64,000 bases of DNA from Candidatus Gastranaerophilales bacterium. GTDB lineage: Bacteria; Cyanobacteriota; Vampirovibrionia; Gastranaerophilales; Gastranaerophilaceae. The translations under genes were made by a program, and so were the position numbers. Positions 10,727 through 47,272 of this stretch are shown piece after piece. Under the pieces are notes generated by a model. The model ran no database searches, was not told the DNA's origin, and worked only from the letters and a program-made list of their open reading frames with translations. Location of the stretch: contig CALVBT010000002.1 in assembly GCA_944325885.1 (NCBI GenBank), forward strand, positions 124,001 to 188,000, written 5' to 3'. The number at the start of each line of letters is the position of its first letter. The stretch's first letter is position 1.

Positions 10727-10822
10727 TGAAATCTCCTTTGTCAGTTACCCTGTTTTGACTTCCTGTTATTTATATCGGAGTTTTCGTTGCCAAACTTTAT
10801 GGTTTTGCTTTGTTATTTTACA

Positions 10823-11662
10823 TTAGTTTACAATTTTTATACCGTCTGTTATAAAGTGCAGATCCTCTATTGTCAAAAATCTGGCACTGTCAAATTGAAC
10901 CGGGCAAAACCTTTCCAACACAAAAAATGTAGGCCCTGAGCCTGACATAAGAGCTTGCGGGATTGCTTTTTTTATTTCCAATAATTCTTGATAATCATTT
11001 ATTACGGCCAGCTCCAGACTGTTATACAAAAAATCAGGGCTGAATGCTGATATCATTTTTTCCGTGTAGTTATTATTTTGTTGTTTTGTGAGTTTTGCAA
11101 ATTTTGTATAGGCTTCTTTTGCCGAAATACCAAATCCCAGCGGCTTTATCAGTGTTACAAATTCATTTTGAGTAGGTATTCTTTGAATATTTTCGCCCCT
11201 GCCCGTGCATAGTGCTGTTCCGCCGTGCAGGCAAAAATTTAAATCTGAGCCTAAAGATGCACATATTTGTTCAATATCATTTTGCTGCAAACGATTGTTA
11301 AACAACTCATTCATAGCTACCAGTGCGCCTGCTGCATCTGTACTGCCGCCGGCAAGACCTGCTTCTACAGGGATATTTTTTTCTATATAGACTTTGATTC
11401 TTTTGTTTTTTATATTTGTTTTTTCAATAAATTTTGTAATAGCTTTGTGGACAAGGTTTTTGCCGTCATAGGGTATTTTGTCGCTGTTTCCGCTCAGGAG
11501 TATTTCTGTTTGTGTTGAGTCTTCAATCTCAAATGTCAGATAGTCATACAGGCTGATTGCCTGCATAATGCTTTTTATATTGTGGAAGCCGTCTTCTCTT
11601 TTGTTTAAAACTTCCAGTGTGAGGTTTATTTTTGCCGGTGCTGCGATTTTTATACTATGCAT
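10823..11662 (-). CDS. ispE: 4-diphosphocytidyl-2-C-methyl-D-erythritol kinase
   Basis: A 279-residue GHMP kinase acting in the MEP isoprenoid pathway, phosphorylating CDP-ME. APAKINLTLEV at the N-terminus, the ATP-binding PVEAGLAGGSTDAAGAL, and the C-terminal LMSGSGPTFFVL are the three GHMP motifs. It overlaps the end of rsmA by 8 bases, an rsmA-ispE arrangement seen in several bacterial groups. Confidence 0.95.
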   Translation of the reverse strand: MHSIKIAAPAKINLTLEVLNKREDGFHNIKSIMQAISLYDYLTFEIEDSTQTEILLSGNSDKIPYDGKNLVHKAITKFIEKTNIKNKRIKVYIEKNIPVEAGLAGGSTDAAGALVAMNELFNNRLQQNDIEQICASLGSDLNFCLHGGTALCTGRGENIQRIPTQNEFVTLIKPLGFGISAKEAYTKFAKLTKQQNNNYTEKMISAFSPDFLYNSLELAVINDYQELLEIKKAIPQALMSGSGPTFFVLERFCPVQFDSARFLTIEDLHFITDGIKIVN

Positions 11663-14339: not shown

Positions 14340-14452
14340 TGTCCCAAACATATTTAAAATTGTAACGTGATTTAATTCTGCAGGCAATTATTTTGTACAA
14401 AATGTTTTTATATATACATAGGTAAGTAATTTTGAAATTTTAGTGTGTGAAA

Positions 14453-14692
14453 ATGGAAAATAGGAATTCTATCTCGCAGGGACGAGTTTCGCAAATGCGA
14501 ATGCGAAACGGCCGAACCTCAGAAAATGTATCAAATCCAATATCAATGCAGCCTCTGCCGCCGCCAAAGTTTGAACCCGTAAGCAAAGAATGTGCGGATG
14601 CAATGCGTTCTCTTGTAATGACGCAGATAAATCTGGGCAATAAAGCCGAGTATTATTCTCCTGATGCTATATATGACAGATTCCGGCATTGA
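14453..14692 (+). CDS. Hypothetical small protein
   Basis: A 79-residue protein with a polar Arg/Asn/Ser N-terminus, a Pro-rich linker (MQPLPPPKF) and a C-terminal segment ending [12 protein letters not shown]. No recognised family. A GTG two codons earlier is an alternative start; neither has a good ribosome site. Its end overlaps the convergent prfB by 26 bases, which is unusual and lowers certainty. Confidence 0.55.
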
Positions 14693-24929: not shown

Positions 24930-25044
24930 CTCTTGTTCTCACTCCTTAAATCTATTCTTTATATTTTAATACTATCATTTAAAAATTACAAAAAAATTTA
25001 TATATATTTAATACGGGGTTTTTGTAAACTTTTTGTAACAATTG

Positions 25045-25078
25045 AAAAGTATATACGCAATTTTTTAAAAGTATATAC
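25045..25078 (+). promoter_or_regulatory. Tandem AAAAGTATATAC boxes 22 bp apart
   Basis: AAAAGTATATAC is repeated exactly at 25045-25056 and 25067-25078, a 22-bp period placing both on the same DNA face. A TATATATA run (a possible -10) follows a few bases later, then AAAGGAG and the start of the gene at 25116. A very similar arrangement precedes the gene ending at 46704. It looks like an activator site. Confidence 0.7.
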
Positions 25079-25115
25079 CTTTATATATATAGAAGATATA
25101 AAAGGAGTAAATTAA

Positions 25116-25391
25116 ATGTCAATTAATCCAGCAGGAGATGCAAGAAATAACAGAGGCGGCAACGGACAGTTCAGACCATTGTTGAGAAAAGCTCAACAGG
25201 AAAACAGACTGCAGGCAAATCTCGCTATCCTTGATAAAAAAGATATCAGAATGAGATTTAAAAATTCTCGTGATCCGCTTTACATTGCTTTTGATTACAT
25301 CGACAAAAGACCTGTTCAGGAATTGGCAGTTGAATTTGTAAAAGATTCTTTATTCGATATCGTAAACTTCATCTCCGGCGGCAACAGATAA
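25116..25391 (+). CDS. Hypothetical protein controlled by tandem GTATATAC boxes
   Basis: A 91-residue protein with an excellent AAAGGAG site. The N-terminal 25 residues are Gly/Asn/Arg-rich (INPAGDARNNRGGNG); the C-terminal half is helical (YIAFDYIDKRPVQELAVEF). No known family or signal peptide. Monocistronic: its own promoter region carries two 22-bp-spaced boxes and a terminator follows. Confidence 0.78.
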   Translation: MSINPAGDARNNRGGNGQFRPLLRKAQQENRLQANLAILDKKDIRMRFKNSRDPLYIAFDYIDKRPVQELAVEFVKDSLFDIVNFISGGNR

Positions 25392-46703: not shown

Positions 46704-47099
46704 TTAGTTGCCGTATTTGAATGTTTTTTCGATGTTGGACTGTGTGTTCTTTTCCCAGCCTTCAACTTGAGTTGAAGCCATTTTTTGTGCAGTTTCTATT
46801 TGTTGTTTCTGGATATCGAGCTGTTGTTCTTTTGCTTGGATTTCTTTCAATTTAGCTGTGAACTGTGCATTGAATGCCTGGCTGTTTACCCATTCGATAG
46901 CGGCTTCATCAGGAACACCTTCTTCGTCAGTGTTAGCTGCGATGTATGCCTGACCAACTGCCATTTGTTTCATTGTGATGTCAGCTTCTTCGTTAGCCAA
47001 TCTTTGAAGTGTATTTGTAATCAATGTTAATTGATATTCATAATCAGATTGTCTGTTTTGTAATTGTTGTGCAGTTAATTGTGAAATTGCGAAGCCCAT
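46704..47099 (-). CDS. Hypothetical coiled-coil protein controlled by tandem boxes
   Basis: A 131-residue protein with AGAGGATAAAGAG before the ATG. It is almost all helix: LTAQQLQNRQSDYEYQL near the N-terminus and KLKEIQAKEQQLDIQKQQIE near the C-terminus have heptad patterns. There is no signal peptide. It ends IEKTFKYGN. No family is recognised; the shape recalls small secreted helical proteins, but no such assignment is made. The upstream region has the tandem GTATATAC-type boxes also found before the gene at 25116. Confidence 0.75.
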   Translation of the reverse strand: MGFAISQLTAQQLQNRQSDYEYQLTLITNTLQRLANEEADITMKQMAVGQAYIAANTDEEGVPDEAAIEWVNSQAFNAQFTAKLKEIQAKEQQLDIQKQQIETAQKMASTQVEGWEKNTQSNIEKTFKYGN

Positions 47100-47150
47100 C
47101 TCTTTATCCTCTTTTTTTATTTTTCTCTTGTATATATATAAAGTAAAATA

Positions 47151-47183
47151 GTATATAAAAATTGCCTTTTTGGTATATACTTT
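47151..47183 (-). promoter_or_regulatory. Tandem GTATATAC-type boxes, 22 bp apart
   Basis: On the minus strand AAAGTATATAC ends at 47173 and TTTTATATAC ends at 47151, 22 bases apart. A CTTTATATATATA stretch follows, as at the 25116 promoter. The two promoters share box sequence, spacing and downstream element. Confidence 0.68.
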
Positions 47184-47256
47184 GCTTAATATTTCGTTAC
47201 ATAAAATATGATAATAGGGCTGTATTTGAATAATATCTTGATTTTTTGCTTTTTGA

Positions 47257-47272
47257 AAAAGTATATACTTTT
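47257..47272. promoter_or_regulatory. Palindromic AAAAGTATATACTTTT site
   Basis: A perfect 16-base palindrome whose half-site equals the boxes at 25045 and 47151. It lies between the divergent genes at 46704 and purA, 88 bases (four 22-base periods) from the nearest box. Confidence 0.5.

Follow-up and report, generated by a model that had tools for sequence, protein, structure and literature searches.

The locus examined here raises the question of why two identical copies of AAAAGTATATAC precede a small gene, and what kind of regulator would read them. The window, i.e., the whole 64,000-nucleotide stretch of DNA that was analysed, belongs to a genome of 2.17 Mb in 19 contigs from Candidatus Gastranaerophilales, gut bacteria that are non-photosynthetic members of the cyanobacterial phylum. 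Both copies lie on the forward strand, at 25045-25056 (box 1) and 25067-25078 (box 2), 22 bp apart from start to start, just as the original prediction had described. It further noted that such repeats usually take the form of sites for LytTR-type or PhoB-type regulators, that the same arrangement recurs before a gene at 46704, and that a small regulon is likely. The gene behind the boxes, hereafter gene A (25116..25391, + strand), encodes a 91-residue orphan protein with the conserved core RMRFKNSRDPxYxAFD. It matches nothing in Pfam or NCBIfam, and its predicted structure is all-helical, with low confidence (pLDDT 58). Its homologues belong to Candidatus Gastranaerophilales; a search for a phage homologue found none.

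Within the window the core of the boxes, GTATATAC, occurs four times, versus 0.5 expected, and none of 100 shuffles attains four. As a lone word it is not enriched across the whole genome (38 sites, versus 42 for the word read backward). Twelve of these 38 sites form six close pairs, whereas about 0.03 would be expected from an estimate based on site density. The spacing within these pairs varies (22, 30, 31, 31, 42 and 88 bp), and the exact pattern of two AAAAGTATATAC boxes occurs once in the genome. A fixed 22-bp spacing is also rejected as a general rule, since across genes, with mismatches allowed, spacings of 30 and 34 bp are equally common. In front of gene A itself the 22-bp pair is conserved, being retained upstream of 20 of the 26 orthologues checked. 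Distant orthologues (L107-L110) have box 2, the -35 element and the repeats upstream of it, described below, and lack box 1.

Two direct repeats on the same face of the helix, with starts separated by 22 bp, are what a LytTR-type response regulator might be expected to bind. However, a search for the LytTR domain (PF04397, E<=0.001) found none in this genome; of 14 control genomes, 5 were positive. Because the controls respond and this genome does not, LytTR is excluded: a canonical LytTR protein is refuted in this 97% complete genome, and we give this explanation virtually no credence.

A comparison of the flanks of every GTATATAC site revealed a larger common structure, namely GGCAATTTTT-N13-YTTTATATATA followed by TAnRRG, usually located 25-45 bp before an SD and ATG. 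The counts that follow rest on consensus and pattern searches. With up to three mismatches, GGCAATTTTT-N13-CTTTATATATA has 43 matches in this genome and the reversed pattern has none. A profile over 42 sites shows a strong GGCAATTTTT, a spacer with TATAC or TGTT at its end, TTTATATATA, and the TAnRRG tail, which is conserved though it lies outside the search pattern; the median distance from promoter to start codon is 33 bp. The consensus elements, GGCAATTTTT and TTTATATATA, are not the TTGACA and TATAAT of a canonical RpoD promoter. In front of gene A, the -35 element is CGCAATTTTT (25056..25065, +) and the -10 region is CTTTATATATA (25079..25089, +). The boxes thus sit in one copy of this promoter class, with box 1 abutting and overlapping the -35 element and box 2 inside the spacer between -35 and -10. 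The TATAC that box 2 contributes directly before the -10 is a common feature of the class.

The class is abundant and conserved throughout the order. In a slightly degenerate form, with up to one mismatch, it was found in all 286 sampled Gastranaerophilales genomes, at 2-56 copies each, versus 0-2 in controls; in a class-wide draw, 7 of 79 genomes from outside the order had matches, with 1-3 apiece. From this uniform presence inside and near-absence outside, we conclude that the promoter class is specific to the order. Copy number differs strongly between genera, from about 2-14 in one (g17) to as many as 56 in another (g14). Among the open-access papers searched, none dealt with promoters or sigma factors in Gastranaerophilales.

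The window contains three copies of the class, beginning at 14383 (+) and 25056 (+) and spanning 47133-47166 (-). The first, GGCAATTATT...GTTTTTATATATA (14383..14416, +), lies upstream of a 65-residue open reading frame (14495..14692, +). The last, GGCAATTTTTATATACTATTTTACTTTATATATA (47133..47166, -), is an exact match to the class and precedes the gene at 46704, hereafter gene B (46704..47099, -), which encodes a 131-residue coiled-coil-like protein whose sole hit in Pfam and NCBIfam is a sub-threshold Tup_N. Gene B was found in all 17 genomes searched in the genus, and the promoter is kept in each of the 16 cases where the DNA before the gene was inspected. It is preceded by the box CAAAGTATATAC (47173..47184, -) and a degraded second box, TTATATAC, 22 bp apart, an arrangement that is kept before most orthologues in the genus. 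The register of these boxes relative to -35 and -10 is about 7 bp off that of gene A. Coiled-coil-like paralogues of gene B share the promoter class elsewhere in the genome; four small ones (L034, L039, L070 and L074), at different loci, all have it. Between gene B and an adenylosuccinate synthetase-like gene (47336) there is also a perfect 16-bp palindrome, AAAAGTATATACTTTT (47257-47272), which lies outside any copy of the promoter.

Most genes behind the promoter encode orphan proteins, and the domains recognised among the others are LysM, CHAP, glucosaminidase, EF-hand/dockerin and RHH. A gene A homologue with 37% identity, from a distant family, has the same promoter class in front; so do an RHH gene and further genes in other families and genera. 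The RHH gene encodes a 62-residue CopG-type protein (L071, L156, L122, L132) and conservedly follows the promoter in a number of genera and families. The boxes thus do mark a regulon, as originally proposed, but not a small one: it numbers some 40 promoters in the present genome and extends across the order.

Behind several promoter copies there is no open reading frame but, within about 60-190 bp, an intrinsic terminator-like end; these copies include L046, L064, the site at L021:1622, and L049 and L051, which are near-identical duplicates. The class is thus placed either just upstream of start codons or upstream of terminator-ended non-coding transcripts. One non-coding transcript, containing CTAACCTTCCCT, recurs behind a TTTATATATA promoter in three families (f1, f3 and f7). 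Its copies (L020 and L026 in this genome; L133, L244 and L245 in f7; L253-L255 in f3) end in an intrinsic terminator and have the same or a similar promoter, with two copies in some genomes. Those of this genome have no match in Rfam, and the CTAACCTTCCCT transcripts probably represent a new family of small RNAs. Where read, occurrences of the CTAACCTTCCCT word in six other genomes (G001, G021, G029, G038, G046 and G051) lie in unrelated, repeat-like DNA. The leaders of the GTT promoters of the class (e.g., L048, L059, L066 and L068) often start with TAAGGTTAG. The word AAGGTTA was found in 12 of 67 leaders, versus 0.7 expected, and CTAACCT in non-coding transcripts. Pairing between the two was nevertheless rejected: duplex energies were unsupportive, with a mean z of -0.1 versus -0.3 for control leaders, and we therefore make no claim of targeting by the small RNAs. 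Our best reading of the regulon is that it would comprise orphan, cell-wall and coiled-coil proteins together with small RNAs.

Direct repeats lie about 5-45 bp upstream of the -35 element, e.g., TTAAGAAATATTAAG or TTGTAAAC-TTTTTGTAACA. Read on the other strand, they resemble HLR1, the site of RpaB, whose consensus is KTTACAWWNNKTTACAWW (PMC11633204; PMC13421787). With up to three mismatches, HLR1 was found at 28 of 42 promoters in this genome, versus 9.0 expected from shuffling (maximum 14), while ordinary upstream regions of the same genome match at a rate of 25%. The idea of HLR1 arose from these same promoters; a second test, on an independent set of promoters taken from other genomes, gave matches at 23 of 39, versus 8.6 expected. 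Among spacings of 0-5, the published HLR1 spacing of 2 scores best, and the repeat period is 10 bp. At this threshold, roughly one promoter in three lacks an HLR1 match.

The position of these sites is also constrained. In the main orientation, the best sites are found only at gaps of 5-7, 15-19 and 27-28 bp from the -35 element, and none lies downstream of the -35 at up to two mismatches. They are phased in 11-bp steps (Rayleigh p about 4e-10 at period 11); this periodicity is partly inherent in a tandem-repeat motif, but a shared register to the -35 is not. Given these gaps, the HLR1-like sites of the main orientation lie on one face of the helix. If transcription is assumed to start 5-10 bp after the -10, they would also lie within or close to the position at which HLR1 is published as activating, -66 to -45 from the start site (PMC13421787). 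Before gene A, the site is TTACAAAAAGTTTACAAA (25021..25038, -), with three mismatches to KTTACAWWNNKTTACAWW and 17 bp upstream of the -35; the TTGTAAAC/TTGTAACA repeats are kept upstream of gene A orthologues. Before gene B, it is TTAATATTTCGTTACATA (47186..47203, +), on the strand opposite to its promoter, with two mismatches and 19 bp away from the -35. Separate from this promoter class, the window also contains an exact match to the HLR1 consensus, TTTACATTAGTTTACAAT (10817-10834).

A candidate for the protein that reads these repeats is encoded in the genome, namely an RpaB equivalog (L114), which scores 372 bits against NF045944, where the cut-off is 330. We infer that an OmpR-family regulator, most likely RpaB, would bind the HLR1-like direct repeats, which precede the -35 by one, two or three turns of the helix, and that once bound it would recruit RNA polymerase to the promoters of the class. 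The genome also encodes an RpaA relative (L116), which scores 262 bits to the RpaA structure 9dvt; this protein or L115 might occupy these repeats instead. The prediction of a regulator of the OmpR/PhoB family was right in kind, but it was attached to the wrong element, the likely sites being the upstream HLR1-like repeats rather than AAAAGTATATAC. Like PhoB/OmpR operators, these are helix-phased repeats of 10-11 bp near the -35. They differ from the 11-bp pho box (CTGTCAT) in being of the TTGTAAC/TTAAG type with a best period of 10, and the 22-bp AAAAGTATATAC repeats are not the PhoB-like element.

A further question is which sigma factor reads the core promoter. In a first alternative, the housekeeping RpoD would do so, tolerating the poor -35 because an RpaB-type activator takes over the -35 contacts, and no dedicated sigma factor would be involved. 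RpoD was found in every genome examined, phased putative activator sites do adjoin the -35, and an upstream HLR1 lets RpaB activate ordinary cyanobacterial core promoters (PMC13421787). However, the -35 GGCAATTTTT is strongly conserved, which would not be expected if it were dispensable, and the promoter is missing in other orders whose RpoD has identical recognition helices. We thus regard RpoD as a rather unlikely reader, albeit one to be taken seriously. The polymerase might instead carry an alternative sigma factor. Eight genes of the sigma-70 type are present in this genome, and we compared sigma profiles over seven genomes of the order and six from outside. The best candidate is a divergent group-2 factor, L080 (C4:203742), whose clade (support 100/100, with a long stem) is present in all seven genomes of the order and in one of the six outside. 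It has conserved changes in regions 2.4 and 4.2, i.e., in the helices that read the -10 and the -35. The changed positions are those that we take to correspond to T440 (V/I in the order) and R584 (K) of E. coli. L080 is therefore put forward as a candidate for the sigma factor of the class, with less certainty than RpaB as its activator.

Two other factors are also specific to the order, L081 and the ECF factor L085, each present in six of seven genomes inside and none of six outside, and each missing from a genome that bears the promoter. These two factors, and the outside genome with a relative of L080 (G307), which has no promoter matches, keep L080 at the rank of a candidate. L081 (C1:256096) is divergent and conserved in the order, with KECIRQTE in its region 4.2; GTATATAC and an HLR1-like site with two mismatches lie upstream of it. 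None of the sigma genes carries a promoter of the class upstream. An ECF factor, either L085 or L083, would be a further alternative, with GGCAATTTTT as a variant of the GGAACTTTT-type -35. GGcAaTTTT does resemble ECF -35 elements, as the GG-AA-TTTT of the class recalls the GGAAC of ECF promoters at similar spacing, and orthologues of L085 are confined to the order. Nonetheless, G002 has 27 promoter matches and no L085, L083 is often present outside the order although the promoter is missing there, and the -10 TTTATATATA, which is AT-only, differs from the usual ECF -10 elements. Across the genomes tested, the presence of no ECF gene tracks that of the promoter, and we consider an ECF factor quite improbable.

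What, then, are the AAAAGTATATAC boxes? Exact GTATATAC was found in 8 of 42 promoters in this genome, located immediately before the -35 or within the spacer, and in none of 39 promoters from other genomes. Paired boxes flank the -35 on both sides, at a spacing of 22, 30 or 31 bp; the 22-bp pair is found around the -35 of gene A, gene B, L003 and the RHH gene of G013 and G007. Because only a minority of promoters have the boxes, and the distant gene A orthologues lack box 1, we conclude that GTATATAC/AAAAGTATATAC is probably an accessory part of the promoter with a regulatory role. Its small share of the promoters, like its lack of genome-wide enrichment, also leads us to reject the view that a small regulon has GTATATAC as its only operator. 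In the subset of promoters that includes those of genes A and B, the 8-bp palindrome GTATATAC on either side of the -35 is probably bound by a second regulator, presumably dimeric, which would tune or block the promoter. To name the conserved RHH protein, or one like it, as this regulator is no more than a guess, prompted solely by the similar pair around the -35 of the RHH gene in f7.

In a stronger version of this guess, the AAAAGTATATAC pair would itself be the principal operator, and a dimeric regulator, for instance the CopG-type RHH protein L071, would bind it. RHH dimers fit 8-bp palindromes about two turns apart, the RHH gene is kept behind the promoter, its own promoter in f7 has GTATATAA-N14-TTATATAC around the -35, and the recurrence of the 22-bp pair at several genes points the same way. 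Against this stand the scarcity of exact GTATATAC among the promoters, the alternative spacings of 30-31 bp and the distant orthologues without box 1; the RHH protein could also be antitoxin-like instead. We therefore judge a main-operator role for the boxes unlikely. Our preferred model, which we hold to be fairly probable from the sequence evidence, is that of an order-specific promoter class activated most likely by RpaB and, less surely, read by an alternative sigma factor, with a second regulator acting at GTATATAC in a subset.

The nearest known parallel is provided by the RpaB/HLR1 promoters of photosynthetic cyanobacteria (psa, cpc), which share with the present class an RpaB equivalog and HLR1 repeats upstream of the core. 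The present class differs in its hosts, which are non-photosynthetic and live in the gut; in its degenerate repeats (TTAAG/TTAAC variants); in its unique GGCAATTTTT -35; in that binding by RpaB is predicted here from sequence; and in its targets, which are orphan, cell-wall and coiled-coil proteins and putative small RNAs. Homologues of RpaA, RpaB and NblS have been reported in Melainabacteria, possibly with another function (PMC3787301, PMC4040986). The lineage and the regulators are the same as here, and the available portions of those reports (Di Rienzi 2013; Soo 2014) describe the regulator genes without target sites or a promoter class.

The retention of RpaA, RpaB and NblS without a known function has been noted since 2013 (PMC3787301, PMC4040986). 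Helix-phased HLR1-like sites before a single promoter class now offer a concrete list of candidate RpaB targets and a direct test. RpaB is a regulator of light responses in photosynthetic cyanobacteria, and its role in the non-photosynthetic Gastranaerophilales thus becomes testable. In addition, dozens of uncharacterised genes per genome, in hundreds of gut species, are marked as one putative co-regulated set, and the class supplies a promoter that is easy to recognise, for use in expression work on an uncultured order. More tentatively, and as a possibility that we hold with considerable doubt, a dedicated system comprising a sigma factor of the L080 clade and RpaB at HLR1-like sites may control orphan surface or secreted proteins and small RNAs. 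If so, this would be an RpaB regulon without photosynthesis, and it may mirror the role that RpaB had before photosynthesis arose in the lineage.
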